A stretch of DNA of 64,000 nt from Chaetoderma sp. LZ-2023a (lineage: Eukaryota; Mollusca; Caudofoveata; Chaetodermatida; Chaetodermatidae). The stretch spans positions 86,213,023 through 86,277,022 of the forward strand of contig CM067373.1 in assembly GCA_034401795.1 (NCBI GenBank). Reading direction: 5' to 3'. Both the position numbers and the translations under genes were made by a program. Of the stretch, positions 13,461 through 57,198 are shown piece after piece (the stretch's first letter is position 1; every line of letters starts with the position of its first letter). The notes beneath the pieces were generated by a model. That model was not told the DNA's origin. It saw only the letters and a list, made by a program, of their open reading frames with translations, and did not search any database.

Positions 13461-13501
13461 AATAAACGAAATCTAGGATTTCTTTTTTCACGAGAGAGTT
13501 G

Positions 13502-13678
13502 ATACTTACCTCCCTAATACTTTTGATATTGCTAAATATTGGCTTTCACTCAATAAACACTCAGATTTAAAACAGTTAGGTGCCCCTACTGGGCAGGGAG
13601 TCAGAGCGTAGTCTGGCGGATGCCAGCCCCACCTCCGCGCATGCGCAGACTAGCACTTCCTCTGACTAGATTATTGGC
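13502..13678 (-). repeat. A1 left inverted terminal repeat
   Basis: About 177 bp, starting ATACTTACCTCCC and ending near AGATTATTGGC. It includes the palindromic GCGCATGCGC block. The 38 bp outside it are specific to this end. Confidence 0.9.
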
Positions 13679-13748
13679 TGACACACATGCAACTATTAAG
13701 AGCCTGAAGACCGAGCCTCTGTGGGGTGGAGAGGCCGGGTCCGTATCT

Positions 13749-13847
13749 AGGGAGGTAAGTATCAACTCTCTCGTGAAAAAAGAAATCCTAGATTTCGTTT
13801 ATTTCACTTCAAGAGTATACTTACCTCCCTAATACTTTTGATATTGC
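13749..13847 (-). repeat. A1 internal complementary region
   Basis: 13,749-13,800 is complementary to the left end (13,464-13,515) and 13,801-13,847 to the right end (20,407-20,453). The two halves meet at GATTTCGTTT/ATTTCAC, which represents the joined ends of a circular form. Confidence 0.9.
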
Positions 13848-14386
13848 CAGAATTCGAAAGTGAATCTGGCGGGAGGGAGGCGAGGTCAAAAGACCAGCTC
13901 ATCCCTATACGCTTTTCTGCGTTTAAGGCACTTAAACTTCTGAAACTGTAAGAAAAAACAGTCAGGTTTTGACTAACCATCGGATAACACTACCGATGTA
14001 TGAGAGATGACCGAATGTCACATGCGCTCCCCCCCCCCCCCCTCCTTCCTGGGAGGAAGAGTCGCCTGACCTCAATGTCCTATACGCTCTCTACGTACAA
14101 GTGCCATGTACTACAGGACAGAGACGAAAAAACTCCATTTTCGTAACTCTCAACAATGAACCACACAAATACACAAACCATCACCATATTAATAACGGGT
14201 AATCGTGACAATACAATCAACAACGGACAACACATGAACAAGACTGACCTTGTTGAAAATGGCTGCTGACATCATCTTCCCATTGGTAAAGACTGATGCA
14301 GGCCCAAAAAAGTGGGTGTTTCCATAAATTAATTGTGAAATATATAAGTAATGAGGAAAAAACCTCCTCAAAAAATATAAACCGAG

Positions 14387-17323
14387 TTATTTTTTCAAAA
14401 TCGACAAGGCGAGAGGATTAGAGGTGTCACGGAGATAATGGTCTGTAAAACTTGACTCACAGTGCCACTGAGCCACCGACATAATATCATCCACAGGGAC
14501 CCCATTAAATAGGGCCGTGGATGTCACTACGCCGCGGACACTGTGAGCCTTGGCCACGTCAACCTGCTTCCCGGTGGCGGATTTATGGCAAAACTGAATG
14601 CATTCCACAATCCACCTGGAAATGGTGTCCTTAGAAGCCCTGCCATGGGGTTCAATATATGACAACCATAACGCTGACTGGTCGGTGCGCCACTCCGCCG
14701 TACGTTGTTTGTACCGGCGCAGCGCCCGGACGGGACACCATGCTTTAGAATTAGGATCATATCTAGTTAAAGCAGGCAAAATAATAGGTTGACCTGGATA
14801 TTTCAACGACTGATTTTTAGCCAAGAAATTAATCCTAGGTAGCAGCTTAAGGCCTTCCCCTGAAACCACAAAACGGTCATCCTCGGCTGATAAGGCATGA
14901 ATTTCACTCCTATGCCTAGCCGAGGCCGCAGCAATTAAAAACACAGTCTTCAGTGTTAATAGTTTCATAGAAATGGAACTAAGTGGTTCAAAAGGCTTAT
15001 CACCTAGTACTTGAAGCACTAGCGATAAACTCCAAGACGGAATCACAGGTGGATTCCTTGGTCTTAGATTGCCCATGCCTTTAATTAATACATTTAATGT
15101 ATTTACTTCATCACTTCCCCTCTTAGCCAAGCAAGGAATAACAGACATTAATGCTGATTTATAACCAGCAATAGAGTTAGGCTTGAGGCTATAGGCATCA
15201 TAGAGGTGACAGAGGAAATCAGCTACTACTTGAATAGATGAATCCATTGGATCAATACATCTTTTTGAGCACCATTCTGCAAATCTGTTGATTTTATAAT
15301 TATATGCTCTGGAGGTTGACCCCCTCCTGGCTTTGGCCATAAACATGGCTGCTTGCTCAGAAAAGCCCTCCTTAATTCTAGATTCCTTGACAACATCCAC
15401 GCAGTCAATCTGAACATTGACGGATTGTTGTGAAGGGCCTTGCCCTGGAAGATAATATCGTCCATCAGAGGCAGAGGAACCGGATTGCAGACCAGAAGGT
15501 CCAGCAGATCCGTATACCATGATCGGCTTGGCCAATCCGGGGCGATCAGAAGCACTTGGCATTCCTCCTGTCTGATTTTCTGAAGAATTTTTGGAATCAG
15601 GATTGCTGGAGGGAATGCGTATGCATACATTCTCCCCCAGCTGATAGCTAACGCATCTGTTGCGAAAGCGCTTGGATCCGGAATCGGAGAGACGTACGTC
15701 GTCATCTTCGCATTCTTCTTCGTTGCGAACAAATCGATGTTGGGTTTCCCCCAATGGTCGAACAGACGATCCGCCACACATTGATTTAGTTGCCATTCCG
15801 TGGGTAAAACACTCATCCTTCGGCTCAATGAGTCTGCTAGCAGGTTTAACCTTCCCGGAATATGAACTGCTTTCAAGGTAATCTGGTGATCCAGACACCA
15901 ACAAAGCAGTTTCCATGTCATCATACAGAGACTGGGCGACTTCGTTCCGCCCTGGCGGTTTATGTAAGTCACAACTGTTGAGTTGTCTGAACGAATAAGA
16001 ACAATCTTGCCCTGAACTTTCTGTAAGAAATGTTCCAGGCCCAGGACTACTGCTCTTAGCTCCAGTAGATTTATATGTTCCTTTGACTGTTCCAGATTCC
16101 AAAGCCCTGATATCGTGGACTCTTCCAGGCAAGCTCCCCAGCCCTCCATCGATGCATCTGTATACACAGTCACCTGAGGGTGGGGAGGGGTTAGCAAAAC
16201 CCCCGGCAAGAGATTCTCTGTATTCAACCACCATTGCAGGTGGTGAATGAGAGGCGCCAACACTGACACATTCGAGTCCAGCGAACCTGTACTCTGGGTC
16301 CATTGTGTCATGAGAAATAACTGGATCGGCCGCCTGCGTAAGGCGGCCTGAGGAATGACTGGTTCCAATGAAACCATCAACCCCAGCATTCTCAAGTAAA
16401 CCCGTGCCAGGACATGACGACTGTCGCACACTGACTGAATTAATGAGATGAGTTTCTGAACTCTCTCCTGAGTAGGATAAACATATCCTGTCTCTAGATC
16501 GAAGAACATCCCCAGGTAAACAAACTTCTGGGATGGAGTCAGCTCTGATTTTGGGAAATTGATCATCCAGCCTAAGTCTGTGAGAGTTTTCAAAACAATC
16601 TCCAGATTGGCCGACAAACTTTCCCGGGTGTGCGCTTTCAACAGCCAGTCGTCTATGTACGTGTGGACTGCTATGCTTCTCCTGCGGAGGTATGCTGTGA
16701 TCGCAAGAACCACACGGGTGAAAACCCGAGGAGCCGTGGAAATTCCGAAGGGCAACACCCTGAATTCCCACTGTCTGCCCTGGAATGCAAATCTCAGGAA
16801 GCGACAGAAACTCCCGTGGATGGGGATGTGGAAATAAGCGTCCTTCAAATCTATCGACGCCGTCCACATCCCCCTCTCCAACCCCGCCAACACCGAGCGC
16901 ACCGTTTCCATCTTGAAACTGGGCGTCTCGATGAACTTGTTCAATGGCTTGAGGTTGAGAATCGGTCTCCACCCTCCGGTGCTTTTTGTTACTAAGAACA
17001 GGGTTGAATAGAAGCCCGGACACCTTTGTGCCGGCTGAATAGCTCCTTTTTGTACGATGGAATTTATCTCCTCCTCGATACACAACCTTTGCTCTGGATC
17101 TCTCGGAATGGGAGTCCAGACTGGCACTAGAGACAGTCGCGACGGCGGGCCTGTCATCCACTCTGGATGATACCCGACGGAAAGCCATCGCAAGACTAAA
17201 CGGTCCTGAGTTAACCGTTCCCACTCTTGCATGTGGTCGGCTAGCCGGCCTCCCACCGGTCCACCTAGGGACCGCGGTGGACACAAGGCATGCAAGAGCG
17301 GCACTGTCTCCGTCGCCATACAC
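14387..17323 (-). CDS. A1 tyrosine recombinase ORF, active-site Arg replaced by His
   Basis: A 978-codon frame in the gag phase; its ATG (17,323) lies 4 nt before the RT ATG. The first roughly 650 codons run in another phase across the RT/RNase H region and are Gly/Ser/His-rich with no recognised fold. The last roughly 320 form the YR: EGFSEQAAMFM, the Arg box, HSVR (HxxR), AQWH and FTDHYL (Tyr). In A1 the Arg box reads SARHRSEIHALS instead of SARRRSEIHALS. Aligned to RxSE of XerD-type recombinases, the lost residue is catalytic Arg I (CGT to CAT, plus-strand base 14,913, a CpG transition). The enzyme is probably inactive here. Confidence 0.85.
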   Translation of the reverse strand: MYGDGDSAALACLVSTAVPRWTGGRPASRPHARVGTVNSGPFSLAMAFRRVSSRVDDRPAVATVSSASLDSHSERSRAKVVYRGGDKFHRTKRSYSAGTKVSGLLFNPVLSNKKHRRVETDSQPQAIEQVHRDAQFQDGNGALGVGGVGEGDVDGVDRFEGRLFPHPHPREFLSLPEICIPGQTVGIQGVALRNFHGSSGFHPCGSCDHSIPPQEKHSSPHVHRRLAVESAHPGKFVGQSGDCFENSHRLRLDDQFPKIRADSIPEVCLPGDVLRSRDRICLSYSGESSETHLINSVSVRQSSCPGTGLLENAGVDGFIGTSHSSGRLTQAADPVISHDTMDPEYRFAGLECVSVGASHSPPAMVVEYRESLAGGFANPSPPSGDCVYRCIDGGLGSLPGRVHDIRALESGTVKGTYKSTGAKSSSPGPGTFLTESSGQDCSYSFRQLNSCDLHKPPGRNEVAQSLYDDMETALLVSGSPDYLESSSYSGKVKPASRLIEPKDECFTHGMATKSMCGGSSVRPLGETQHRFVRNEEECEDDDVRLSDSGSKRFRNRCVSYQLGENVCIRIPSSNPDSKNSSENQTGGMPSASDRPGLAKPIMVYGSAGPSGLQSGSSASDGRYYLPGQGPSQQSVNVQIDCVDVVKESRIKEGFSEQAAMFMAKARRGSTSRAYNYKINRFAEWCSKRCIDPMDSSIQVVADFLCHLYDAYSLKPNSIAGYKSALMSVIPCLAKRGSDEVNTLNVLIKGMGNLRPRNPPVIPSWSLSLVLQVLGDKPFEPLSSISMKLLTLKTVFLIAAASARHRSEIHALSAEDDRFVVSGEGLKLLPRINFLAKNQSLKYPGQPIILPALTRYDPNSKAWCPVRALRRYKQRTAEWRTDQSALWLSYIEPHGRASKDTISRWIVECIQFCHKSATGKQVDVAKAHSVRGVVTSTALFNGVPVDDIMSVAQWHCESSFTDHYLRDTSNPLALSILKK
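15226..17319 (-). CDS. A1 reverse transcriptase / RNase H
   Basis: A 697-codon frame if it starts at the ATG at 17,319 (MATETVPLL), 38 bp past the gag stop. The frame is open further upstream, to 17,607. RT: GGWRPILNLKPLN, ASIDLKDAYFHIP (motif A Asp), LPFGISTAPRVF (motif B), VHTYIDDWLL (motif C) and YLGMFFD. RNase H: VYTDASMEGWG, LELRAVVLG, IRSDNSTVVTYI and LADSLSR. A module PNIDLFATKKNAK...YVSPIPDPS of unknown role follows. It uses the +1 frame relative to gag and overlaps the YR frame over 2.1 kb. All RT and RNase H catalytic residues are present. Confidence 0.88.
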   Translation of the reverse strand: MATETVPLLHALCPPRSLGGPVGGRLADHMQEWERLTQDRLVLRWLSVGYHPEWMTGPPSRLSLVPVWTPIPRDPEQRLCIEEEINSIVQKGAIQPAQRCPGFYSTLFLVTKSTGGWRPILNLKPLNKFIETPSFKMETVRSVLAGLERGMWTASIDLKDAYFHIPIHGSFCRFLRFAFQGRQWEFRVLPFGISTAPRVFTRVVLAITAYLRRRSIAVHTYIDDWLLKAHTRESLSANLEIVLKTLTDLGWMINFPKSELTPSQKFVYLGMFFDLETGYVYPTQERVQKLISLIQSVCDSRHVLARVYLRMLGLMVSLEPVIPQAALRRRPIQLFLMTQWTQSTGSLDSNVSVLAPLIHHLQWWLNTENLLPGVLLTPPHPQVTVYTDASMEGWGACLEESTISGLWNLEQSKEHINLLELRAVVLGLEHFLQKVQGKIVLIRSDNSTVVTYINRQGGTKSPSLCMMTWKLLCWCLDHQITLKAVHIPGRLNLLADSLSRRMSVLPTEWQLNQCVADRLFDHWGKPNIDLFATKKNAKMTTYVSPIPDPSAFATDALAISWGRMYAYAFPPAILIPKILQKIRQEECQVLLIAPDWPSRSWYTDLLDLLVCNPVPLPLMDDIIFQGKALHNNPSMFRLTAWMLSRNLELRRAFLSKQPCLWPKPGGGQPPEHIIIKSTDLQNGAQKDVLIQWIHLFK

Positions 17324-17356
17324 ACCGGAGTGGTTCTTACCGCGGTAAGCGTCCTG

Positions 17357-19350
17357 TCAGGACCGATAACCACGCCCAGATCCTCGCGCACCCCGCCCCG
17401 CCCCGCGCGCACCTTGGTGCGCGGGCGGCTGCCTGGCTGACGGCGCCTGAGGAACCTGCGCCCCCCTCGCTGCTGGCCGAACCGCACGCGGCCGAGGCCG
17501 ACGCTGCGACGGTGGCTGGCCTCTGACTTGGCCAGCACCACCTCGAGCCTGCAGGGGACGATACGCAGGGGCCGCGGCGCGAACGTTAGCACGACGCAGC
17601 ACTTCAAACTGCTCGCGCAGCGCCCTCTGGTTATTCACCAGGGTGACCGTCTCCTGGAGGTGGCGACATCCCTCACCTCCAAAAAGACCAGGACCCGTCA
17701 TAGGCGTACGGAGTAGCCTATTGTACAGGTCCTGAGACGGGCACAGATTGTCCAGGGCAAACGTGCGTCTTGCCCGGACACTCCTGGTCACCGCCCGAGT
17801 CATACAGTCCAGCGCCAGGTTAATACCATCCTGGATGGCTCGCTGGACCGTGACCGGGCTTGGCTGGCGCGATGCGGATGCCGTTACTACCCCCTGTAAC
17901 AGCTGGGAGACGTGGGACAGAGCGGCAATCGAAGCCCTCCCACTCTCCTCCGCATCACGCAACGCGGTATTCGCCGAACGCAACGCGTTCGAACACAAGA
18001 CCCCCGTGTCAGAACGGGAGCCTGGCCGCGCATCCTCACCCAAAGCCGCGCGGTCATCCACGCTGGGCTTGGGTACCACACCGTACCGCTGGTAATCCAG
18101 GGGCACGATGCGACAACGCTTGGCCACCTCGCGAGGGGCCTTCGCGAGACGTCCACTCGAGTTAATGGATGACTCCGCCGCCTTGAACATGTCAACGACA
18201 TGCTCCGCCAGCGGCAGAGAAGGCATAGCGTTAGCAGTCGGTTTCCCAGCTAACCACTCAAGCTGACCAATCCTCCTCCGTGGCTAACTGCGAGCGCTCT
18301 ACAAGACGGGGTCCTTCGTCTTCCTCCTGAGCGCAAGCAGTAGAGCTTGACGGCGGGTACGCTGATACACCTGGCAAGCCAGGGAAAACATGCGGGCCTG
18401 ATAGCACCGGCATGACAATATCACTGGTTTGACCAGGAGCAGGCACCGTAGCAGAGCGCGGGGTATATACCGCCCCACCACGGGCCCGGCCAGCACCAGC
18501 AACACCCTCGGCAAGCCGAGGTATGCGGTACCGCTGGCCATCAGCAGCGCCCTGGGCCACCACCTGAGCCGCGGACTTTACTCCAGGGTGAGTAAAACCG
18601 TGGAAGAAGCCGCCTGTATTCCCCGCGAGGGGTGCACAAACGTCTTCATCCATGTCCACGTCGTCAGACGGCGACCCTAGCAGGTAATCCTCATCACCCT
18701 GGTCAGAAAGATTAGACCCCGGGTCAGCAAAGAGAGCTAACCCGGGCTGACCAGGAACGGTGCCATAGGAGGTACTGGCCACCGCGGCGTGCGGATACCC
18801 CTGGACTGATAAGCAGCCCGCGGGTTCCAGCGACAACCGTCCACGGTCCCCTCTCGGCGCGGCAATAAGCCTGCTGCCAGGGTCGTGGAACGCCCCCTCT
18901 AATGGGGCCACCTCTGAATCGTCGAACAACGGAAGCGGTCTAAGGAAAACCGATCCAGAGGCGGGGATTACCTGCTCCGAAGCCGATGATGAGGACAGTA
19001 AAGGATTTGGTCCAGGAAGCATGCCACGAATCAACCCTGGAACCAAATCCTTTATTGTCCTCTTCATCTCTCCCAACATCTCGGTCCGGAAGGCCTCCAT
19101 ATCCACCGCGGACGAGACCTTCCCCTTACCCTTCCTACTTACAACCTCTCGTTTCCGCTTCTTCTTCTTCTCCTCCTCTACCACCTTGTCCGTCGCCTGT
19201 AAGCAGCACAAGAATTCGGACATTAACTCGCCCCCCCCAGTGCTTACATATGTCACAATTAACCAAGGGACCACAAGGGCTACATTGATAGCACAGATGA
19301 GGCCAGAACTTTTCATGTAGAAAACGTCCACAGGACGCGCAACCCGGTCC
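17357..19350 (-). pseudogene. A1 gag exon 2 (frameshifted)
   Basis: Starts with the Cys/His cluster GPGCASCGRF...HLCYQCSPC....CDICKHW, then a Lys/Glu-rich stretch (EEEKKKKRKREVV), an acidic middle region, GPGLFGG, and an Arg/Gly-rich basic tail. The frame changes at a run of eight C (19,231-19,238; A2 has seven) and again at a deletion between AACCAC repeats (18,252-18,257), which removes about 71 bp relative to A3. The remaining pieces are 18,258-19,364 and 17,357-18,226. A capsid/nucleocapsid role is inferred from position and basic tail. Confidence 0.75.
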
Positions 19351-20116
19351 CTGAAACAGGGCAAAGGACAAGGAGTATGAGCAAACTAGTTAAGCTTAAA
19401 CACTCAAACCAACTCAAAGAGAAGGAAAACGATCATAAAGATCAATATACATCAGAAACCAGCATAGCGACTTGAATTGCTGATAAATACATAGCCAGGC
19501 TGATTATGACGTCATTAATCCCGTGACAGGAAAAATTCGATCCCAACAAAACATCCAAGTGCAAGGACGAATTGTATGCTGAATGGATACGTCGACTACA
19601 CAACCATCAGATACATATAGATAACTCTTTTCTGGCAAAAATGTTAATTATCTCCCTTTGCTTGTTTACTATAATTAACATCACCACATTATCAATAACC
19701 AGATACCTGACACTTTGTATAGACAAACCATCCAACGTGACGAACTGGAGAACTCCACCATCTGCACGCCTCTTAACTCTCTCCACCTCATGGGGAAGGA
19801 ATTGGATCAAGAGGGCAAAGTGAGAAGACCTTTATACTAGGCCTCCAACTCACTGGACATAATTTTTCATTTGGTTAGATAACCTAACAGTATTAGTAGG
19901 AAATGGAACCATGGTGGAGAGAAAACTAACTCTCTGCTGCTGTGATGTCACCACCTAGCGTCATACAGACCTGTGGACATAAACAGAAAGAGAAATTAGC
20001 CTTAGGTAGCACCGAGTTGACATAAACCAACTAACCAAGGCGCTTATCACGGTAAACGCGAGTCCCGGAAACACAATACACCGGGAAGAAAACTCGCTAA
20101 TTTTACTAGAAGTCAC

Positions 20117-20167
20117 CTGATTTAAAGGTCCTAAGTCCTCCTTTGGCGAAGTGTTCCTTCCTGCCAT
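20117..20167 (-). CDS. A1 gag exon 1 (predicted), MAGRNTSPKEDLGPLNQ
   Basis: A 17-codon frame from ATG to CAG/GTGACT. The main gag frame has no ATG ahead of its Cys cluster, but a clear acceptor (TTTGCCCTGTTTCAG) stands at 19,351-19,352. Joining phase 0 to phase 0 gives LNQ/GPGCASC. The intron would be 766 bp (19,351-20,116). The same exon is present in A2 and A3 with mostly tolerated changes. Expression evidence is lacking. Confidence 0.6.
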
Positions 20168-20259
20168 CCAAAAAAGTGACTATCACTCCAAATAACCCCA
20201 CTTAAACAGTTTAAGAATAAGAAAAAGCTTTTGCACAAAAAGACATGTGTGATCTCTCT

Positions 20260-20437
20260 GCCAATAATCTAGCAAAGAGGAAGTGCTAGTCTGCGCATGC
20301 GCGGAGGTGGGGCTGGCATCCGCCAGACTACGCTCTGACTCCCTGCCCAGTAGGGGCACCTAACTGTTTTAAATCTGAGTGTTTATTGAGTGAAAGCCAA
20401 TATTTAGCAATATCAAAAGTATTAGGGAGGTAAGTAT
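20260..20437 (-). repeat. A1 right inverted terminal repeat
   Basis: Inverted mate of 13,502-13,678, ending GGGAGGTAAGTAT, followed by the end-specific ACTCTTGAAGTGAAAT. Confidence 0.9.
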
Positions 20438-20453
20438 ACTCTTGAAGTGAAAT

Positions 20454-21220
20454 GAGGATTCGCCCATTAACGGACTACCATTCTCATCCTCCTTCTGACC
20501 CTTGGATGAGTAGGCCACTGACGACCCATGCTGAGAACCATGGACTACACGTCTTTCAACATGAACTGAGTCCATAGCCCGACTACTTGCGGCTCCTGTA
20601 TCCAGTGAATTGCCAGACATGGATTCACCGCAGTCCATCGGCTCCAGCACGGGAGCCGGGACTACAGCTGCCTTTACCACGGCAGGCGACGGAACTCCGA
20701 GAGGAGCCGTGCTTACTGCCGCCGAGATGCTGACCACCCTGCTGGCAGACCCATACAAAACCCGAGGGAGACCCTTGGGACGAACTCGGTCCTGCCATAT
20801 GCGAAAGATACGGCATGCCAGAATCTTCCATCAGAAGATCTTCTTCCTCCGCCGTCAGCTCTTGAGCCAAAGCAGGAGGAAGGACAGGTGCTCGTTCCTC
20901 CACAGAAATGGCCGGACCACCAATAGGTTGCCTTGCACCAGCCAGCATCACCGGAACCGTGGACTGGAAAGAGTCGCACATCGCCTTGAATTGGGCCACC
21001 CATACACCCAATGCTAAGTCCATGCGCTCATTCAGACCTTCTTCCAGACCGTTAACGGATGCCTGATCCACTTTGGCCGCCTTGTCCCTCGCAATCCTCT
21101 CCAAACGCGCACGCCGATCACGATCAAACTCTGCCACCAACTCCGATGACCACTTAGCACAAACATCGCAAGGACTCCCAACCTTGCACTTCGCTCAAGC
21201 CACGCAGTGGTGTCTAGAAA
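20454..21220 (-). pseudogene. B1 gag, 5' part with Cys cluster
   Basis: Begins with HHCVA then stop, AKCKVGSPCDVC and the charged segment ELVAEFDRDRRARLERIARD. The stop is TGA at 21,195-21,197, where B2 has Cys (TGC). A frame change near 20,750 links SQGSPSGF to the Ala/Val-rich stretch that ends EDENGSPLMGESSF at the A1 boundary. A pyrimidine tract ending TTTTCTAG precedes HHC and looks like a splice acceptor. No product could be made from this copy. Confidence 0.7.
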
Positions 21221-21598
21221 AGGACAAAACAAAACGTTAATCATGGGTGCCGCCATCTTGGCTACGGGCGCATCCATCTTGGAAGGAACCGAGTCGCAAG
21301 AGAAATTAAAAGAGTACCCGGATAAGGCTAAACAGTTAACGGGTAACGGAGCGACTCCAACAATTGCTACCATTTTAAAACAATGTGCCAATTTAACAAA
21401 ATTTTAATCAGTCATTACGGCACGAATGTATAAATTCTAGATTGATACAACCTGCCCCTGTGATGACTTTCCCTTTCCTTCCATGAGGCCAGCGATGAAA
21501 ACACGAAAGTACGCTTAAATATGCTAGAGTTAGCTTAAATTGAGCTTAGAAAAACATGCGCCTTAACAAGTCAGCAAAATACACGAATCTGTCTGTGA

Positions 21599-21741
21599 TT
21601 GGGAATTGACTCGGTACCTGGGGCTATGGTAATTCCCGGACACAGTATGGGCAGGACCAGGAGAGTGAGGAGTTTTTAATTGTTTATTTTGAGCTAGACT
21701 GGATAATAGACATTATCATAATAGTACATCTGGTAAGTATT
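21599..21741 (-). repeat. B1 right inverted terminal repeat
   Basis: Mate of the left ITR. It is followed by the short end sequence TATTCGAAGTAGAA, whose complement lies in the second half of the ICR at about 9,858-9,875. Confidence 0.85.
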
Positions 21742-22010
21742 ATTCGAAGTAGAAAGCAATGTCTTTAGCATTCGCAATATTTCAAAATCTAGGGTAGGAT
21801 TTCCTGCCAATTGCACTTGTAAATGTATATTTATTTACTAAACAGACTGATGTACTCAAATTTGTTTTCGAAGAGTTGTATGTGAAATCCCACATATGTC
21901 GCTCATTTTCAATAGCAATTATCGTGAAAGGGAGAAAATCTTGTCTTAGGAGACATCGGTTGTACACATAAATTAGTGTGATTATGTCCCATTAGATGAA
22001 CAGATTTCTG

Positions 22011-46782: not shown

Positions 46783-46815
46783 AAAGCATCCGCTTTTGTT
46801 TCTACGAGAATTCTT

Positions 46816-46975
46816 AATACTTACCAGATGTACTATTATGATAATGTCTATTATCTAGTCTAGCTCAAAATAAACAATTAAAACTCCACACTCTCCTGGT
46901 CCTGCCCATACTGTGTCCGGGAATTACCATAGCCCCAGGTACCGAGTCAATTCCCAATCACAGTCAGATTCGTCT
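46816..46975 (-). repeat. B2 left inverted terminal repeat
   Basis: About 160 bp, inverted relative to 58,728-58,884; it extends through CACAGTCAGATTCGTCTTA. Confidence 0.85.
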
Positions 46976-47030
46976 TATATTTGCCTTGACAAACAGCGAA
47001 AGCAGCTCAGCCTCACCTCAGCGGGTGGCC

Positions 47031-47081
47031 ATAGTACATCTGGTAAGTATTAAGAATTCTCGTAGAAACAAAAGCGGATGC
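47031..47081 (-). repeat. B2 half internal complementary region
   Basis: Only the part complementary to the left end remains. After GCGGATGC the sequence jumps straight to ATACGCTTGGG, which in B1 lies about 155 bp further on. The half complementary to the right end is therefore deleted. Confidence 0.8.
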
Positions 47082-47590
47082 ATACGCTTGGGTTCTGCCA
47101 TCTGACTCATAGAGCGCTAAACTTCCATGGTCTAGACTGCGCTCCCCCCCCCCTCTCTTTTGTCCGCACAAAATCCAGAGGGCTGTCAATGGGGATGCAA
47201 CACCCACCAGACCCGTGTGAGCCCCAAGTCTCAGCTAGGGCAGTCCAGTAGAGTGCAAAGAAGCTACTACAACTTCTAATTTTGAAAAAATATCAGTATA
47301 TCGACTAGATTTTCAAATTGGAATGAGTCTAATGTCTGTTTGAGAGGATAAGTATACTCTTATATCAGACTATTTACTTAAGCAGTCTGATATTTCGACT
47401 GTAAGTAAATATTAATATATTATTACCCACTTAATTAATGTAAACACTCACCATTTTGAGTGCTTGATCTTTCTTGATCATCCCAGGAGCTCGGCCCAAT
47501 CCACGGTCGTTCACTTGTCATGTGCATGGCTCTTGCTCAGTGCAGGAGGAAGTAACGTGCAATGTTTGTGAAGTGGTGGTCGGATGTGGC

Positions 47591-49012
47591 TTAACTAACG
47601 TTCGACAAATTGGCGACGGCTACCGGATTAAGTGCGCTGGAGATGTCGCGAAGGTAGAAATCAGTAAATGACGACTCGGTATGCCATTGTGCTACAGACA
47701 TCACCTCCTCTAATGAGACACCCTTAAAAAGGGGTGATGATGCTGCTAATGCTCGGACCTGATGGGCGTTCGCACGACCAATCTGCTTTCCTGTAGCAAT
47801 TTTGTGAGACATCTGAATAGCGTCAACTATCCAACGAGAAATAGTATCTTTCGAGACGTGCAAATGAGGAGCTTTGAGACATAACCACAGAGATTTAGGG
47901 TCATCTCTCCACTCCTCAGTACGTTTCTTACACCTTTTCAGACATCTGACAGGACACCAAGCAGAAGAGTTTGGGTTATGTCTGACTAAACTTGGCAAAT
48001 TGATCGGTTGACCTGGATATTTAAGTGACTGATTCTTTGCCAGGAAACAAAGACGTGGAAGTAGTCTTAAACCTTCACCCGTGACGACAAAACGGTCTTG
48101 TTCGGCAGATAGCGCATGAATTTCGCTTCTCCTTCTCGCCGATGCTGCTGCAAACAAGAAAACTGATTTAATAGTTAACAGTTTAATATCTATAGATCTA
48201 ATCAGTTCAATGGGAGCATGCCCTAAAACCTGTATAACAAGAGATAGATTCCGTGCAGGGATAGGAATTGGCTGTCTAGGTCGCAGATTGCTCATTCCTT
48301 TAATAACTTCATTCAAAGTGTCATTCTCCACTCCTTCAATAGATAGACTGGGAATGACTGAAGCTAATGCAGACTTATATGCTGCTAGGGTTGAAGGTAC
48401 AAGTTTGTCAACTTTGTATAAATGACAGATAAAATCTGCTACGTGTTGAACAGATGCAGACAAGGGATTAATATCTCTTCCATGGCACCATTCTGCAAAT
48501 TTGTTGATTCTATAATTATATGTTTTGGTGGTTGACCCTCTTCTGGCTGAAGCGACAAACTTCGCTGCTTGCTCAGAAAAGCCACCCTCAATTGCACGAT
48601 GCTTGACAACATCCATGCAGTCAATTTGAACATTTCCGGTCTGTCGTGAAGACACAGACCCTTGTTCTGAGTGATTAGATCCCTTCGTTCTGGAAGAGGG
48701 ATTGGATTGCAGACCAGAAGGTCTCCACCATCCGGTGCGTTTAGGAACGAGGAACATCATTGAATAGAAGCCTGGGGATGACTGATTGCGGACTAAGTGA
48801 ATCGCATTCTTCTGCTGAAGACTTTCGATTTCTGAACAAAAGGCCTCTAGACGATCGGATTCTCTTGGAACGGAACTAACGATTGACGGATGAGCCAGTC
48901 CGGTCCGTAGCCGTTTCTTAACCATTGACAGACCAAACAATCTTGCACGACCTGTTCCCATTGGTTTGAGAACAGTTGCAGTCTGCCTCCGACGGAAGGA
49001 ATCTGCACACAA
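47591..49012 (-). CDS. B2 chimeric frame: RT N-terminus fused to tyrosine recombinase
   Basis: A 473-codon open frame. Codons 1 to about 98 are RT fingers (EIESLQQKNAIHLV, SPGFYSMMFLVPKRTGWWRP); then, at a GGTC microhomology (48,720-48,723), the frame passes into the YR linker (SGLQSNPSS) and the full YR: SARRRSEIHALS, HQVR, AQWH, FTDFYL. RT motifs A-C and all of RNase H are gone. The YR catalytic set is complete and uninterrupted, unlike in B1. Whether it is translated is unknown. Confidence 0.85.
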   Translation of the reverse strand: MCADSFRRRQTATVLKPMGTGRARLFGLSMVKKRLRTGLAHPSIVSSVPRESDRLEAFCSEIESLQQKNAIHLVRNQSSPGFYSMMFLVPKRTGWWRPSGLQSNPSSRTKGSNHSEQGSVSSRQTGNVQIDCMDVVKHRAIEGGFSEQAAKFVASARRGSTTKTYNYRINKFAEWCHGRDINPLSASVQHVADFICHLYKVDKLVPSTLAAYKSALASVIPSLSIEGVENDTLNEVIKGMSNLRPRQPIPIPARNLSLVIQVLGHAPIELIRSIDIKLLTIKSVFLFAAASARRRSEIHALSAEQDRFVVTGEGLRLLPRLCFLAKNQSLKYPGQPINLPSLVRHNPNSSAWCPVRCLKRCKKRTEEWRDDPKSLWLCLKAPHLHVSKDTISRWIVDAIQMSHKIATGKQIGRANAHQVRALAASSPLFKGVSLEEVMSVAQWHTESSFTDFYLRDISSALNPVAVANLSNVS

Positions 49013-49126
49013 TTCGCGATCGATGTTGTACGAGATGACGTTAATTCGCCTAGGTGAAGATCCTCGACTCCCCTCGTTCCTTTTGTAACCGGAGCGGATC
49101 CAGCCGGAAACCCGCCAGGACCGTAC

Positions 49127-50144
49127 CTACGGCCACCCGTGGTTTCTTGGCAAATGACGGTCCGGAACCGCCACCACGGCTATCCTTATGGTAGCCGCCA
49201 CGGCCCGAACCGCCACCCTTCCTGTCCTCCTCATACGGCCTCTTACTAGAGGACTTTTATGAAGAACGACCAGGACCTTGAGAGCCGGATGGCCGATGGG
49301 CATCACGGCCAGAAGGACGGAAGGGCGATCTTTGGCGCTGCCTCTGCTGCGGTGCTGTTTGTATGACTGTTGCGGCTGAGTCCCTTTCGTTGACTTCCAC
49401 GACTTGCCGACTACTTCCTGCTCTGCGACCATTGACGTGACCTTGGATAAGGCTTGCCGTGCCAAGCCGCCGAACAAGCCTGGACCAATGAATGGCGCGG
49501 AAGATAACGCAGCTCTTATCTCAGGTCCTGGTTCTACAAAATCGAGAACCATTCTCCGTCGCTCAGCCAATGATTTCGTGATCACCCTGGCCAGGCAATC
49601 TTGAGATAGGCGCATGGAGTCCCGGATAATTCCGGGAGCAGCCTCTGGCACTACCCCACGTTCCGCCGCGCAGATCAGCATACCCTGCAGGATGGTACAA
49701 CCGTGCGAAAGCGCCGCCATGGCAGCTCTCGCCGCATCCTCAATGAGGGTCAACCCATTGAAAGGATCTTTGTTAGTCTGGGAAACTAACGGACGAGAAC
49801 GCCCTTTAGCTTTGCCAGCCAATGGCCTATTCAGCGCCTCTCTCTCCCCGACGGAAAGCCGTGGGACCCGGGCATACTGGTGATAGGCTAGCTCCGGAAA
49901 ACGGACCCTACTCCTAATCCCTTTCGGGCCTTCGGTAACGTAGTCCGGCTGGACCATACGGTACGCCGCCACCTCCAACATGTCAGAGGTCAACGTATCC
50001 AAAGGCAGAGCAGGCATGGCCGAAGAGCCACTGGACAGAGCGCTAGCCGCTCGCTCTGACATCCGCTCCATCGCCGGATCGCACTGAGATCCCTGATCTG
50101 ATGCCAACCCTAGACGGCCGGATATCCATTCAACCTCGGTGGAA
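49127..50144 (-). CDS. B2 gag, 3' part
   Basis: An open frame from the A3 border (..STEVEWISGRLGLASDQ) through SERAASALSSGSSA and GPGLFGGLARQAL to a basic tail, ending NHGWP at 49,127. It is the continuation of the frame that ends ESSF on the other side of A3 (57,199). With A3 removed and one AAT kept, the two sides read through without a shift. Confidence 0.75.
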
Positions 50145-50185
50145 AATAAACGAAATCTAGGATTTCTTTTTTCACGAGAGAGTTG

Positions 50186-50362
50186 ATACTTACCTCCCTA
50201 ATACTTTTGATATTGCTAAATATTGGCTTTCACTCAATAAACACTCAGATTTAAAACAGTTAGGTGCCCCTACTGGGCAGGGAGTCAGAGCGTAGTCCGG
50301 CGGATGCCAGCCCCACCTCCGCGCATGCGCAGACTAGCACTTCCTCTGACTAGATTATTGGC
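50186..50362 (-). repeat. A3 left inverted terminal repeat
   Basis: Inverted relative to 57,005-57,182; both carry GTCCGGCGG where A1 and A2 have GTCTGGCGG, again showing ends copied from one another. Confidence 0.9.
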
Positions 50363-50432
50363 TGACACACATGCAACTATTAAGAGCCTGAAGACCGAGC
50401 CTCTGTGGGGTGGAGAGGCCGGGTCCGTATCT

Positions 50433-50531
50433 AGGGAGGTAAGTATCAACTCTCTCGTGAAAAAAGAAATCCTAGATTTCGTTTATTTCACTTCAAGAGT
50501 ATACTTACCTCCCTAATACTTTTGATATTGC
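50433..50531 (-). repeat. A3 internal complementary region
   Basis: Two-part sequence complementary to both A3 extremities; same layout as A1. Confidence 0.9.
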
Positions 50532-51062
50532 CAGAATTCGAAAGTGAATCTGGCGGGAGGGAGGCGAGGTCAAAAGACCAGCTCATCCCTATACGCTTTT
50601 CTGCGTTTAAGGCACTTAAACTTCTGAAACTGTAAGAAAAAACAGTCAGGATTTGACTAACCATCGGATAACACCACCGATGTATGAGAGATGACCGAAT
50701 GTCATATGCGCTCCCCCCCCTCTCCTTCCTGGGAGGAAGAGTCGACTGACCTCAATGTCCTATACGCTCTCTACGTACAAGTGCCATGTACTACAGGACA
50801 GAGACGAAAAAGCTCCATTTTCGTAACTCTCAACAATGAACCACACAAATACACAAACCATCACCATATTAATAACGGGTAATCGTGACAATACAATCAA
50901 CAACGGACAACACATGAACAAGACTGACCTTGTTGAAATGGCTGCTGACATCATCTTCCCATCGGTAAAGACTGATGCAGGCCCAAAAAAGTGGGTGTTT
51001 CCATAAATTAATTGTGATATATATAAGTAATGAGGAAATCACCTCAAAAAATATAAACCGAT

Positions 51063-53864
51063 TTATTTTTTCAAAACCGACAAGGCGAGAGGATTAGAGG
51101 TGTCACGGAGATAATGGTCTGTAAAACTTGACTCACAGTGCCACTGAGCCACCGACATAATATCATCCACAGGGACCCCATTAAATAGGGCCGTGGATGT
51201 CACTACGCCGCGGACACTGTGAGCCTTGGCCACGTCAACCTGCTTCCCGGTGGCGGATTTATGGCAAAACTGAATGCATTCCACAATCCACCTGGAAATG
51301 GTGTCCTTAGAAGCCCTCCCATGGGGTTCAATATATGACAACCATAACGCTGACTGGTCGGTGCGCCATGCCGCCGTACGTTGTTTGTACCGGCGCAGCG
51401 CCCGGACGGGACACCATGCTTTAGAATTAGGATCATATCTAGTTAAAGCAGGCAAAATAATAGGTTGACCTGGATATTTCAACGACTGATTTTTAGCCAA
51501 GAAATTAATCCTAGGTAGCAGCTTAAGGCCTTCCCCTGAAACCACAAAACGGTCATCCTCGGCTGATAAGGCATGAATCTCACTCCTACGCCTAGCCGAG
51601 GCCGCAGCAATTAAAAACACAGTCTTCAGTGTTAATAGTTTCATAGAAATGGAACTAAGTGGTTCAAAAGGCTTATCACCTAGTACTTGAAGCACTAGCG
51701 ATAAACTCCAAGACGGAATCACCGGTGGATTCCTTGGTCTTAGATTGCCCATGCCTTTAATTAATACATTCAATGTATTTACTTCATCACTTCCCCTCTT
51801 AGCCAAGCAAGGAATAACAGACATTAATGCTGACTTATAACCAGCAATAGAGTTAGGCTTGAGGCTATAGGCATCATAGAGGTGACAGAGGAAATCAGCT
51901 ACTACTTGAATAGATGAATCCATTGGATCAATACATCTTTTTGAGCACCATTCTGCAAATCTGTTGATTTTATAATTATATGCTCTGGAGGTTGACCCCC
52001 TCCTGGCTTTGGCCATAAACATGGCTGCTTGCTCAGAAAAGCCCTCCTTAATTCTAGATTCCTTGACAACATCCACGCAGTCAATCTGAACATTGACGGA
52101 TTGTTGTGAAGGGCCTTGCCCTGGAAGATAATATCGTCCATCAGAGGCAGAGGAACCGGATTGCAGACCAGAAGGTCCAGCAGATCCGTATACCATGATC
52201 GGCTTGGCCAATCCGGGGCGATCAGAAGCACTTGGCATTCCTCTTGTCTGATTTTCTGAAGAATTTTTGGAATCAGGATTGCTGGAGGGAATGCGTATGC
52301 ATACATTCTCCCCCAGCTGATAGCTAACGCATCTGTTGCGAAAGCGCTTGGATCCGGAATCGGAGAGACGTACGTCGTCATCTTCGCATTCTTCTTCGTT
52401 GCGAACAAATCGATGTTGGGTTTCCCCCAATGGTCGAACAGACGATCCGCCACACATTGATTTAGTTGCCATTCCGTGGGTAAAACACTCATCCTTCGGC
52501 TCAATGAGTCTGCTAGCAGGTTTAACCTTCCCGGAATATGAACTGCTTTCAAGGTAATCTGGTGATCCAGACACCAACAAAGCAGTTTCCATGTCATCAT
52601 ACAGAGACTGGGCGACTTCGTTCCGCCCTGGCGGTTTATGTAAGTCACAACTGTTGAGTTGTCTGAACGAATAAGAACAATCTTGCCCTGAACTTTCTGT
52701 AAGAAATGTTCCAGGGCCAGGACTACTGCTTTTAGCTCCAGTAGATTTATATGTTCCTTTGACTGTTCCAGATTCCAAAGCCCTGATATCGTGTACTCTT
52801 CCAAGCAAGCTCCCCAGCCCTCCATCGATGCATCTGTATACACAGTCACCTGAGGGTGGGGAGGGGTTAGCAAAACCCCCGGCAAGAGATTCTCTGTATT
52901 CAACCACCATTGCAGGTGGTGAATGAGAGGCGCCAACACTGACACATTCGAGTCCAGCGAACCTGTACTCTGGGTCCACTGTGTCATGAGAAATAACTGG
53001 ATCGGCCGCCTGCGTAAGGCGGCCTGAGGAATGACTGGTTCCAATGAAACCATCAACCCCAGCATTCTCAAGTAAACCCGTGCCAGGACATGACGACTGT
53101 CGCACACTGACTGAATTAATGAGATGAGTTTCTGAACTCTCTCCTGAGTAGGATAAACATATCCTGTCTCTAGATCGAAGAACATCCCCAGGTAAACAAA
53201 CTTCTGGGATGGAGTCAGCTCTGATTTTGGGAAATTGATCATCCAGCCTAAGTCTGTGAGAGTTTTCAAAACAATCTCCAGATTGGCCGACAAACTTTCC
53301 CGGGTGTGCGCTTTCAACAGCCAGTCGTCTATGTACGTGTGGACTGCTATGCTTCTCCTGCGGAGGTATGCTGTGATTGCAAGAACCACACGGGTGAAAA
53401 CCCGAGGAGCCGTGGAAATTCCGAAGGGCAACACCCTGAATTCCCACTGTCTGCCCTGGAATGCAAATCTCAGGAAGCGACAGAAACTCCCGTGGATGGG
53501 GATGTGGAAATAAGCGTCCTTCAAATCTATCGACGCCGTCCACATCCCCCTCTCCAACCCCGCCAACACCGAGCGCACCGTTTCCATCTTGAAACTGGGC
53601 GTCTCGATGAACTTGTTCAGTGGCTTGAGGTTGAGAATCGGTCTCCACCCTCCGGTGCGTTTTGTTACCAAGAACAGGGTTGAATAGAAGCCCGGACACC
53701 TTTGTGCCGGCTGAATAGCTCCTTTTTGTACGAGGGAATTTATCTCCTCCTCGATACACAACCTTTGATCTGGATCTCTCGGAATGGGAGTCCAGACTGG
53801 CACCAGAGACAGTCGCGACGGCGGGCCTGTCATCCACTGTGGATGATACCCCACGGAAAGCCAT
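51063..53864 (-). CDS. A3 tyrosine recombinase ORF
   Basis: 933 codons overlapping RT/RNase H for about 1.96 kb. The YR catalytic residues are complete (SARRRSEIHALS, HSVR, AQWH, FTDHYL). In the last roughly 320 residues it differs from A1 at only a handful of positions, including the Arg/His site. Confidence 0.87.
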   Translation of the reverse strand: MAFRGVSSTVDDRPAVATVSGASLDSHSERSRSKVVYRGGDKFPRTKRSYSAGTKVSGLLFNPVLGNKTHRRVETDSQPQATEQVHRDAQFQDGNGALGVGGVGEGDVDGVDRFEGRLFPHPHPREFLSLPEICIPGQTVGIQGVALRNFHGSSGFHPCGSCNHSIPPQEKHSSPHVHRRLAVESAHPGKFVGQSGDCFENSHRLRLDDQFPKIRADSIPEVCLPGDVLRSRDRICLSYSGESSETHLINSVSVRQSSCPGTGLLENAGVDGFIGTSHSSGRLTQAADPVISHDTVDPEYRFAGLECVSVGASHSPPAMVVEYRESLAGGFANPSPPSGDCVYRCIDGGLGSLLGRVHDIRALESGTVKGTYKSTGAKSSSPGPGTFLTESSGQDCSYSFRQLNSCDLHKPPGRNEVAQSLYDDMETALLVSGSPDYLESSSYSGKVKPASRLIEPKDECFTHGMATKSMCGGSSVRPLGETQHRFVRNEEECEDDDVRLSDSGSKRFRNRCVSYQLGENVCIRIPSSNPDSKNSSENQTRGMPSASDRPGLAKPIMVYGSAGPSGLQSGSSASDGRYYLPGQGPSQQSVNVQIDCVDVVKESRIKEGFSEQAAMFMAKARRGSTSRAYNYKINRFAEWCSKRCIDPMDSSIQVVADFLCHLYDAYSLKPNSIAGYKSALMSVIPCLAKRGSDEVNTLNVLIKGMGNLRPRNPPVIPSWSLSLVLQVLGDKPFEPLSSISMKLLTLKTVFLIAAASARRRSEIHALSAEDDRFVVSGEGLKLLPRINFLAKNQSLKYPGQPIILPALTRYDPNSKAWCPVRALRRYKQRTAAWRTDQSALWLSYIEPHGRASKDTISRWIVECIQFCHKSATGKQVDVAKAHSVRGVVTSTALFNGVPVDDIMSVAQWHCESSFTDHYLRDTSNPLALSVLKK

Positions 53865-53998
53865 CGCAAGACTAAACGGTCCTGAGTTAACCGTTCCACT
53901 CTTGCATGTGGTCGGCTAGCCGGCCTCCCACCGGTCCACCTAGGGACCGCGGTGGACACAAGGCATGCAAGAGCGGCACTGTCTCCGTCGCCATACAC
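51902..53998 (-). CDS. A3 reverse transcriptase / RNase H, altered start
   Basis: All catalytic motifs are present (YIDDWLL, VYTDASMEGWG, IRSDNSTVVTYI). A missing C near 53,895 puts the ATG at 53,998, which belongs to the YR phase in A1, in frame with RT; the usual RT ATG (53,994) is now out of frame. The protein would therefore begin MYGDGDSAALA and switch to RT sequence at VERLTQDRL. Confidence 0.85.
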   Translation of the reverse strand: MYGDGDSAALACLVSTAVPRWTGGRPASRPHARVERLTQDRLVLRWLSVGYHPQWMTGPPSRLSLVPVWTPIPRDPDQRLCIEEEINSLVQKGAIQPAQRCPGFYSTLFLVTKRTGGWRPILNLKPLNKFIETPSFKMETVRSVLAGLERGMWTASIDLKDAYFHIPIHGSFCRFLRFAFQGRQWEFRVLPFGISTAPRVFTRVVLAITAYLRRRSIAVHTYIDDWLLKAHTRESLSANLEIVLKTLTDLGWMINFPKSELTPSQKFVYLGMFFDLETGYVYPTQERVQKLISLIQSVCDSRHVLARVYLRMLGLMVSLEPVIPQAALRRRPIQLFLMTQWTQSTGSLDSNVSVLAPLIHHLQWWLNTENLLPGVLLTPPHPQVTVYTDASMEGWGACLEEYTISGLWNLEQSKEHINLLELKAVVLALEHFLQKVQGKIVLIRSDNSTVVTYINRQGGTKSPSLCMMTWKLLCWCLDHQITLKAVHIPGRLNLLADSLSRRMSVLPTEWQLNQCVADRLFDHWGKPNIDLFATKKNAKMTTYVSPIPDPSAFATDALAISWGRMYAYAFPPAILIPKILQKIRQEECQVLLIAPDWPSRSWYTDLLDLLVCNPVPLPLMDDIIFQGKALHNNPSMFRLTAWMLSRNLELRRAFLSKQPCLWPKPGGGQPPEHIIIKSTDLQNGAQKDVLIQWIHLFK

Positions 53999-54011
53999 AC
54001 CGGCGTGGTCC

Positions 54012-56097
54012 TTACCGCGGTAAGCGCCCTGTCAGGAACGATAACCACGCCCAGATCCTCGCGCGCCCCGCCCCGCCCCGCGCGCACCTCGGTGCACGGG
54101 CGGCTGCCTGGCTGACGGCGGCTGAGGAGCCTGCGCCCCCCCTCACTGCTGGCCGAATCGCACGCGGCCGAGGCCGGCGCTGCGACGGCGGCTGGCCTCT
54201 GACTTGGCCAGCACCACCTCGAGCCTGCAGGGGACGATACGCAGGGGCCGCGGCGCGAACGTTAGCACGACGCAGCACCTCAAACTGTTCGCGCAGCGCC
54301 CTCTGGTTATTCACCAGGGTGACCGTCTCCTGGAGGTGGCGACATCCCTCACCTCCAAAAAGACCAGGACCCGTCATAGGCGTACGGAGTAGCCTATTAT
54401 ACAGGTCCTGAGACGGGCACAGATTGTCCAGGGCAAACGTGCGTCTTGCCCGGACACTCCTGGTCACCGCCCGCGTCATACAGTCCAGCGCCAGGTTAAT
54501 ACCATCCTGGATGGTTCGCTGGACCGCGAGCGGGCCTGGCTGGCGCGATGCGGATGCCGTTACTACCCCCTGTAACAGCTGGGAGACGTGGGACAGAGCG
54601 GCAATCGAAGCCCTCCCACTCTCCTCCGCATCACGCAACGCGGTATTCGCCGAACGCAACGCGTTCGCGCACAAGACCCCCGCGTCAGAACGGGAGCCTG
54701 GCCGCGTATCCTCACCCAAAGCCGCGCGGTCATCCACGCTGGGCTTGGGTACCACACCGTACCGCTGGTAGTCCAGGGGCACGATGCGACAACGCCTGGC
54801 CACCTCGCGAGGGGCCTTCGCGAGACGTCCACTCGTGTTAATGGACGACTCCGCCGCCTTGAACATGTCAACGACATGCTCCACCAGCGGCAGAGAAGGC
54901 ATAGCGTTAGCAGTTGGTTTCCCAGCTAACCACGGCGTGTGAACACGGTGGCTAGCCGACTGCTCCACGGGCAGATCAGGCCTAACGCTCACCAACCACT
55001 GGCAAGCGTCATACCAATCCTCCTCCGTGGCTAACTGCGAGCGCTCTACAAGACGGGGTCCTTCGTCTTCCTCCTGAGCGCAAGCAGTAGAGCTTGACGG
55101 CGGGTACGCTGATACACCTGGCAAGCCAGGGAAAACATGCGGGCCTGACAGCACCGGCATGAGAATATCACTGGTTTGACCAGGAGCAGGCACCGCGGTA
55201 GAGCGCGGGGTATATATAGCCCCACCACGGGCCCGGCCAGCACCAGCTACACGCTCGGCAAGCCGAGGTATGCGGTACCGCTGGCCATCAGCAGCGCCCT
55301 GGGCCACCACCTGAACCGCGGACCTTACTCCAGGGTGAGTAATACCGTGGAAAAAAGCGCCTGTATTCCCCGCGAGGGGTGCACAAACGTCTTCATCCAT
55401 GTCCACGTCGTCAGACGGCGACCCTAGCAGGTAATCCTCATCACCCTGGTCAGAAAGATTAGACCCCGGGTCAGCAAAGAGAGCTAACCCGGGCTGACCA
55501 GGAACGGTGCCATAGGAGGTACTGGCCACCGCGGCGTGCGGATACCCCTGGACTGATAAGCAGCCAGCGGGTTCCAGCGACAACCGTCCACGGTCCCCTA
55601 TCGGCGCGGCAATAAGCCTGCTGCCAGGGTCGTGGAACGCCCCCTCTAATGGGGCCACCTCTGAATCGTCGGACAACGGAAGCGGACTAAGGAAAATCGA
55701 TCCAGAGGCGGGGATTACCTGCTCCGAAGCCGATGATGAGGACAATAAAGGATCTGGTCCAGGAAGCATGCCACGAAGCAACCCTGGAACCAAATCTTTT
55801 ATTGTCCTCTTCATCTCTCCCAACATCTCGGTCCGGAAGGTCTCCATATCCACCGCGGACGAGACCTTCCCCTTACCCTTCCTACTTACAACCTCTCGTT
55901 TCCGCTTCTTCTTCTTCTCCTCCTCTACCACCTTGTCCGTCGCCTGTAAGCAGCACAAGAATTCGGACATTAACTCGCCCCCCCCAGTGCTTACATATGT
56001 CACAATTAATCAAGGGACCACAAGGGCTACATCGATAACACAGATGCGGCCAGAACTTTACATGCATAAAACGTCCACAGGACGCGCAACCCGGTCC
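54012..56097 (-). pseudogene. A3 gag exon 2 (frameshifted at both ends)
   Basis: The central 663-codon stretch is continuous, without the breaks seen in A1 and A2 near residue 350. However, the Cys cluster (56,040-56,097) is out of frame with it because of the eight-C run near 55,978-55,985. The Arg/Gly-rich tail also shifts at a lengthened C run near 54,136, giving a different C-terminus (ARIWAWLSF). Homopolymer length could also be a sequencing error. Confidence 0.75.
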
Positions 56098-56860
56098 CTG
56101 AAACAGGCCAAAGGACAAGGAGTATGAGCAACTAGTTAAGCTTAGAAACTCAATCCAACTCAAAGAGAAGGAAAACGATCATAAAGATCAATATACATCA
56201 GAAACCAGCATAGCGCTTGAATTGCTGATAAATACATAGCCAGGCTGATTATGACGTCATTAATCCCGTGACAGGAAAAAATCGATCCCAACAAAACATC
56301 CAAGTGCAAGGACGAATTGTATGCTGAATGGATAAGTTGACTACACAACCATCAGATACATATAGATAACTCTTTTCTGGCAAAAATGTTAATTATCTCC
56401 CTTTGTTTGTTTACAATAATTAACATCACCACATTATCAATAACTAGATACCTGACACTTTGTATAGACAAACCATCCAACGTGACGAACCGGAAACTCC
56501 ACCATCTGCACGCCTCTTAACTCTCTCCACCTCATGGGGAAGGAATTGGATCAAGAGGGCAAAGTGAGAAGACCTTTATACCAGGCCTCCAACTCACTGG
56601 ACATAATTTTCCATTTGGTTAGATAACCTAACAGTGTTAGTAGGAAATGGAACCATGGTGGAGAGAAAACTAATTCTCTGCTACTGTGACGTCACCACCT
56701 AGCGTCATACAGACCTGTGGACATAAACAGAAAGAGAAATTAGTCCTAGGTAGCACCGAGTTGATATAACCCAACCAACCAAGGCGCTTATCACGGTAAA
56801 CGCGAGTCCCGGAAACACAATACACCGGGAAGAAAAGTCGCTAATTTTACTAGAAGTCAC

Positions 56861-56911
56861 CTGATTTAAAGGTCCTCCGTCCTCCTGTGGCGAAGTATTC
56901 CTTTCCGCCAT
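56861..56911 (-). CDS. A3 gag exon 1 (predicted)
   Basis: Seventeen codons MAERNTSPQEDGGPLNQ, then CAG/GTGACT. The acceptor at 56,098-56,099 gives a 763-bp intron. Three residues differ from A1 and the frame is preserved. Confidence 0.6.
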
Positions 56912-57004
56912 CCAAAAAAGTGACTAACACTCCAAACAAACACCACTTAAACAGTTTAAGAGTACGAAAAAGCTATTGCACAAAAAAACATGTGTGATCT
57001 CTCT

Positions 57005-57182
57005 GCCAATAATCTAGCAAAGAGGAAGTGCTAGTCTGCGCATGCGCGGAGGTGGGGCTGGCATCCGCCGGACTACGCTCTGACTCCCTGCCCAGTAGGG
57101 GCACCTAACTGTTTTAAATCTGAGTGTTTATTGAGTGAAAGCCAATATTTAGCAATATCAAAAGTATTAGGGAGGTAAGTAT
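57005..57182 (-). repeat. A3 right inverted terminal repeat
   Basis: Mate of the left ITR, ending GGAGGTAAGTAT, with the end-specific ACTCTTGAAGTGAAAT outside. Confidence 0.9.
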
Positions 57183-57198
57183 ACTCTTGAAGTGAAAT

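Follow-up and report, generated by a model that had tools for sequence, protein, structure and literature searches.

A gag position in one DIRS-like retrotransposon family as a probable preferred insertion address of another in Chaetoderma

The window, i.e., the whole analyzed stretch of 64,000 nucleotides of Chaetoderma sp. LZ-2023a (assembly GCA_034401795.1, contig CM067373.1, positions 86,213,023 to 86,277,022), contains three copies of a DIRS1-like retrotransposon, here called element A (A1, A2 and A3). A related element, here called B, is present twice, and all A and B copies lie on the minus strand (Table 1). The tyrosine recombinases (YR) of A and B are 64% identical over the aligned part. 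The first B copy (B1, as a whole ~9551-21752) is interrupted by A1, the second (B2, ~46783-58898) by A3. Reading of the borders confirmed what had been proposed from the letters alone (in the following, the sequence-only reading), namely that both insertions occupy the identical gag position, with AAT on both borders. Two explanations had been offered for this, a fixed address of A in the gag gene of B or a later homogenization of the A copies by gene conversion. Our analysis favors the former. With a probability of roughly 0.8, the gag position in family B is a preferred landing address of family A that has received numerous independent insertions over a long time, at least one A-related family having used it as well, with the preference coming from the integration machinery of A.

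Family A is a DIRS1-like element, with reverse transcriptase (RT) and RNase H domains, inverted terminal repeats (ITRs), an internal complementary region (ICR) with a 3-bp junction, and no target duplication. A profile search of A1 (15226-17607) revealed RVT_1 (E 3.4e-22), RNase H-like and weak Dam matches; the RT_RNaseH match (E 1.2e-4) scores 22.6 bits and is thus under the 24.8-bit cut-off, and the Dam match (E 0.0053) is under its curated cut-off as well. In the recombinase, the N-terminal (integrase) SAM-like domain alone matches, weakly and under the cut-off (E 0.0046); on visual inspection of the aligned A and B recombinases, a putative catalytic HxxR and Y pattern can be made out. The ITRs are ~200 bp long and 93-94.5% complementary in A1, A2 and A3, and in the ICR of all three copies the complements of both element ends flank the core ATT. 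ITRs, an ICR with a 3-bp ATT junction, RT-RNase H-methyltransferase and YR characterize DIRS1-like elements (Dictyostelium DIRS-1 and its animal relatives), and the integration model for this group assumes that the ends carry NTT and that the target is not duplicated (PMC3266345). Element A shares the ITRs, the ICR with its ATT junction, the RT and RNase H domains and the lack of target duplication with them, and putatively the methyltransferase and YR, but its start and end trinucleotides vary among copies outside the T and AA described below, and the accessible part of that paper describes no fixed address of DIRS1-like elements in another DIRS family (PMC3266345).

The base preceding A is T in 73/73 left flanks, and the first two bases at the right border are AA in all right ends read, with varying adjacent bases. 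Therefore, each end of the element carries part of the circle's ATT, and no duplication is created. The uninterrupted site, GGTGCAGAA^TGAGGATTC in B1-like copies and GGTGGAAAA^TGACGACTC in B2-like copies, contains a single AAT, and AATGA is present once in 19/20 uninterrupted B copies, the 20th being a small variant. As the target is AA^T, AAT appears on both sides of A1 and A3, with B supplying only the adjacent AA and T; the borders noted by the sequence-only reading are real but partly belong to the element itself. Likewise, the gag frame of B2 is indeed preserved if one AAT is kept, as claimed, but equally so with two. The absence of a target-site duplication is also seen from L040, another locus at this position, which was cut at GCAGAAT^GATG, compared with GCAGAA^TGAGG for A1, i.e., one base further right in the same sequence. 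The border of L089 differs, too. The borders of A agree with the published DIRS model in the NTT ends and the missing duplication, but a full 3-bp match of the target is not needed here (PMC3266345, accessible part).

Within the window, host and guest elements have diverged to very different extents. B1 and B2 differ at 50/345 YR residues (a recount of the ~47/330 reported before, the clear difference remaining), A1 and A3 at 3/345, which agrees with the "handful" counted previously. The change in identity is abrupt: just inside each end, A1 and A3 have 0/100 mismatches, whereas B1 and B2 just outside the insertion have 13/50 mismatches on the right and 6 in 32 aligned columns on the left, with mismatches starting 0 bp (left) and 2 bp (right) past AAT. 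The synonymous divergence (dS) of B1/B2 is 0.16 for YR, 0.40 for gag 3' of A and 0.92 for the last 100 codons 5' of A. A1 and A3 have 17 silent and 20 replacement differences in YR and pol together (P 0.0024 against neutrality). The assertion that gag is still more diverged near the site thus holds for the 5' side, but the 3' side is uneven. The ratio of nonsynonymous to synonymous divergence (dN/dS) of B1/B2 is 0.42 for YR, 0.29 for gag 3' of A and 0.40 for gag 5' of A, with a departure from neutrality of p 9e-11 for the 3' part of gag and p 3e-4 for YR. The values below neutrality in gag argue that most of the B1/B2 divergence predates A; gag appears to have diverged mostly under purifying selection, while functional, before A broke it. 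Private differences number 32 in A1, 104 in A2 and 103 in A3, and A1 is equally distant from A2, which lies outside B, and from A3. A1 and A3 are separate insertion events and not copies of one. Note that 38 of the 104 private differences of A2 fall within 750 columns (41482-42231), as if this patch derived from another A variant. In element B, the RT core is missing from both copies via different deletions (the retained residues equivalent to A pol are 483-793 in B1, and 48-288 and 683-793 in B2), and B2 is also without the ICR part bearing the circle junction. Element B may be decaying or have non-autonomous mobility.

The window's own assembly (2,438,752,110 bases, 2753 contigs) was searched with a composite query joining 300 bp of the B1 gag flank to 300 bp of the A1 end. 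Genome searches scored the best 40 candidates per query, ranked by likeness to the query, and all counts are lower bounds; furthermore, composite queries detect only insertions in the orientation of the query and in B lineages near it. The possibility that A1 and A3 are the only A copies in B gag, named beforehand as fatal to a fixed address, was looked for genome-wide, and an A-type element was found at the gag address in 18 loci among the best 40. Seventeen of them are family A members (some, the oldest, 5-15% diverged), and the remaining one, L100, is an A-related DIRS element, ~35% diverged, with its own ATT junction. The left junctions were read from genomic DNA for 16/18 loci and from the window for A1 and A3; the right junction was found ~7 kb away for 8/18 loci, plus one further locus, with a right-junction query. 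The corresponding B2/A3 query resulted in four full-length rows, with A3, A1 and C13 at the address and L048 75 bp away. In contrast, three other A-in-B sites examined with the same query design were occupied in only 2 (L024 site), 1 (L023 site) and 1 (L018 site) loci among the best 40. This difference supports the fixed-address alternative of the sequence-only reading.

The target preference of A was followed in three samples of its flanks: the least flank-biased one (39 copies, 37 readable; L035 and L042 are without a readable A left end), a second one (36 copies, 32 kept; L050, L051, L055 and L070 are without a readable A left end) and a third one. At the border, 7/37, 6/32 and 5/20 flanks, respectively, are A- or B-like, i.e., 18/89 (~20%), the identical flanks L067 and L068 being counted as two; A-like and duplicate flanks were retained in this count but excluded from the motif tests. 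Two target features recur in the three samples, a purine at -6 (23/32, 19/25 and 15/16) and T at -10 (22/32, 12/25 and 9/16). On a target matrix made from 34 non-B insertions, the gag site ranks 16th/10376 in B1 and 6th/10082 in B2. These data would fit an explanation that needs no special recognition: A may generally favor DNA that is DIRS-rich or heterochromatic, together with purine tracts rich in A, of which the gag site would simply be the best one in the commonest DIRS. Indeed, B gag is abundant (~4100 first-look candidates, compared with 1618 for A). However, the gag site possesses the purine at -6 but not the T at -10, and the three other B sites struck by A are common to only 1, 1 and 2 loci, as described above, so that we regard this explanation as rather unlikely.

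Two possible sources of the preference were considered, of which the first was rejected and the second downgraded. The likeness of the gag site to the circle junction of A is not the cause of the hotspot, its rank around ATT among the ATT sites of B being unremarkable. The targets also appeared to resemble A's own right-end arm (7.29/18 vs 5.00 in the first sample, z 7.1), and this arm ranks 4th/62368 on the target matrix, but the later samples failed to repeat the likeness beyond -6. For likeness to the A terminus, z was 4.7 (n=32), 0.1 (n=25) and 0.5 (n=16); when the samples were pooled, shifting the register by 20 bp gave a score as high as the true one. Note that the two replicate sets were drawn by queries with flank bases, which biases border-near positions and not distal ones. 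The gag sites themselves agree with the right-end arm in 7 and 9 of 18 bases (background mean 5.0), and the right flanks (17 copies) have likeness to neither A arm. Besides, two inverted A copies, L076 and L083, share one insertion point (A coordinate 81) in an A-like terminal repeat, which is perhaps a second recurrent address.

Independence of the insertions was assessed pairwise, comparing the divergence of A (first 600 bp) with that of the B flank (600 bp; Fisher p<0.01, uncorrected). The two are discordant in 131/153 pairs of the 18 loci, and 12 loci are mutually discordant: many independent insertions have occurred at one position. The discordance goes in both directions, e.g., L087/L089 differ by 0.1% in A and 15.8% in B, and L090/L096 by 14.7% in A and 1.4% in B, with the discordance of the latter pair being spread across most of the stretch in a windowed comparison. 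The insertion times at the address range from very recent (A near-identical) to old. Consequently, the loci as a whole cannot be explained by the copying of one B[A] composite, and the objection to a simple duplication that had been raised from the unequal divergence of A and B was borne out. Twenty B copies, selected among the top-scoring matches to two queries made of B alone (12/40 and 8/40) for their closeness to B1 or B2, all run through the address uninterrupted (19 by pattern; L102 by eye, with a small change). In a quick tree of 38 rows, eight empty copies form a group with A3 (support 100), and five form one with A1 (support 80).

Several observations weigh against a preferred address struck many times. 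In the least flank-biased sample, 4/37 A copies lie in B and 1/37 at the address, with 33/37 outside B; the address does not hold most insertions and is not required by family A. The pairs L093/L094 (A 0.8%, B 1.3%) and L096/L097 (A 0.5%, B 0.8%) each represent one event that was copied. In the tree, occupied rows are clustered beyond shuffled labels (8 state changes vs a mean of 13, with 1/500 shuffles as low; note that the empty copies were picked near B1 and B2), and the strongly supported branches force only 2 state changes. The target matrix describes a weak pattern, and compared with ordinary window DNA the gag site reaches only the top 0.9% and 0.45% on it, which alone is too little for a hotspot. 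Over the final 63 codons of the gag part compared, 3.5 silent differences stand against 25.5 replacement ones, i.e., the N/S ratio is reversed. Finally, on the 3' side of gag, a 69-bp patch (13312-13380, 83-151 bp from the A1 junction) has one B1/B2 mismatch amid ~16% divergence (shuffle p 0.007), for which constraint or a small conversion tract can be considered. As to L096 (C14) and L097 (C9), they are on different contigs and diverge after ~700 bp of A; possibly, B and its inserted A were mobilized together, or the duplication was a dispersed one.

Some of these points would be expected if a single B[A] composite had been duplicated or mobilized as a unit and its A part had later been homogenized by gene conversion or replaced at the resident address. 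The two pairs just mentioned behave as copied composites, 22/153 pairs fit an equal age of A and B, and long-range conversion from A copies elsewhere would likewise end at the A termini. Nevertheless, this explanation is largely refuted and has become highly improbable: apart from the 131 discordant pairs, the gag dN/dS of 0.29 and 0.40 would be unexpected had gag been broken before B1 and B2 split, A1 and A3 have uninterrupted B copies as their neighbors in the tree, the mismatches begin at (left) or 2 bp past (right) the AAT borders, and the borders of L040 and L089 differ. Simple B[A] duplication as a general cause is ruled out by the discordant divergence, the gag dN/dS and the empty B neighbors, and the homogenization proposed earlier is opposed by the latter two and by the 1-bp offset of L040. 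Chance, by which two or several insertions would happen to share one of the ~122 conserved ATT/AAT positions in B, would produce A1 and A3 alone, given two B hits, in ~1 in 122 to 1 in 209 cases, an appreciable likelihood, but is practically eliminated by the 18 loci at the address vs 1-2 at the control sites. An assembly artefact has an equally negligible chance: repeats are hard to assemble, but the loci lie on many contigs with varied B alleles and A ages, eight of them have both junctions ~7 kb apart, and the window contains zero N.

The recurrent choice of the gag position is thus probably a property of A's integration machinery. The circular cDNA of A, joined at the ATT core, would recombine into DNA without duplicating the target; the machinery would often favor DIRS DNA, with the gag codon as the preferred site within B. 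The preference could be set by the recombinase, perhaps helped by Gag or by chromatin, on locally suitable sequence, and an interrupted B copy would be silenced as a source of gag. More tentatively, at odds somewhat short of even, the A recombinase or a Gag-recombinase complex reads the conserved B gag codon as a preferred attachment site, A being a superparasite that homes into an essential gene of its rival. The address would then be older than family A, since the ~35% diverged relative uses it too.

R2-type and homing elements occupy a fixed address in a conserved gene. Element A resembles them in having a conserved multicopy target, but the enzymes are different and its target is the gag gene of another mobile element. 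For DIRS-1 of Dictyostelium, the accessible part of the report describes a strong preference for inserting into DIRS copies (PMC5006619); A shares this strong preference for DIRS DNA but targets one position in a different DIRS family. Ngaro retrotransposons in the EMALE virophages of Cafeteria are also YR retrotransposons favoring another mobile element, a preference that the authors tie to ORF1 (Gag-like); however, in the accessible part of that study their insertions are found in intergenic DNA as well as in several genes and in terminal inverted repeats, and are not at one codon as in A (PMC8547959). In the literature searched, mostly open-access and without the 1984 DIRS-1 paper, no fixed address of one DIRS family inside another was found. 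Searches of viral_contigs (with B YR, A pol, the A/B YR alignment and two 20-base patterns) and of genome_contigs revealed no relative. Target choice by DIRS elements is almost untested so far. Here, both the junction on the donor side and a natural target that has been used repeatedly are defined to the base, and empty and occupied alleles are available by the dozen, which makes the targeting of a eukaryotic YR retrotransposon directly testable. Furthermore, the repeated breaking of gag of one retrotransposon family by another at a conserved position represents a mobile-element conflict that could limit B.

Table 1. Positions in the window of the A and B copies, their borders and internal complementary regions (MT, methyltransferase; ORF, open reading frame; for the other abbreviations, see text).
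Feature	Positions	Strand	Basis or remark
A1, DIRS1-like retrotransposon in B1 gag	13464..20450	-	Termini from ends common to three copies and ICR
A2, third A copy, outside B; borders TTT/AAA, not AAT/AAT	38989..45970	-	Termini from common ends and ICR
A3, DIRS1-like retrotransposon in B2 gag, position homologous to that of A1	50148..57195	-	Common ends, ICR and domain matches
B1, left of A1: gag 3' part, MT remnant, YR, ICR, left ITR	9551..13463	-	
B1, right of A1: gag 5' part, right ITR	20451..21752	-	
B2, left of A3: gag 3' part (49127-50147), YR ORF (47591-49012), left ITR	46783..50147	-	
B2, right of A3: gag 5' part, right ITR	57196..58898	-	
A1 left AAT border	13461..13463	-	In other copies, T is part of the A end
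A1 right AAT border	20451..20453	-	In other copies, AA is part of the A end
A3 left AAT border	50145..50147	-	
A3 right AAT border	57196..57198	-	
A1 ICR	13748..13847	+	Circle junction ATT at 13801-13803
A3 ICR	50432..50531	+	Circle junction ATT at 50485-50487

Besides the A and B copies, the window contains two adjoining tandem arrays (4186-5354 and 5357-6419) with units of 151 and 181 bp, as well as a DDE_3 transposase fragment at 35186-35974, which is Tc1-like according to a weak HTH_Tnp_Tc3_2 match.
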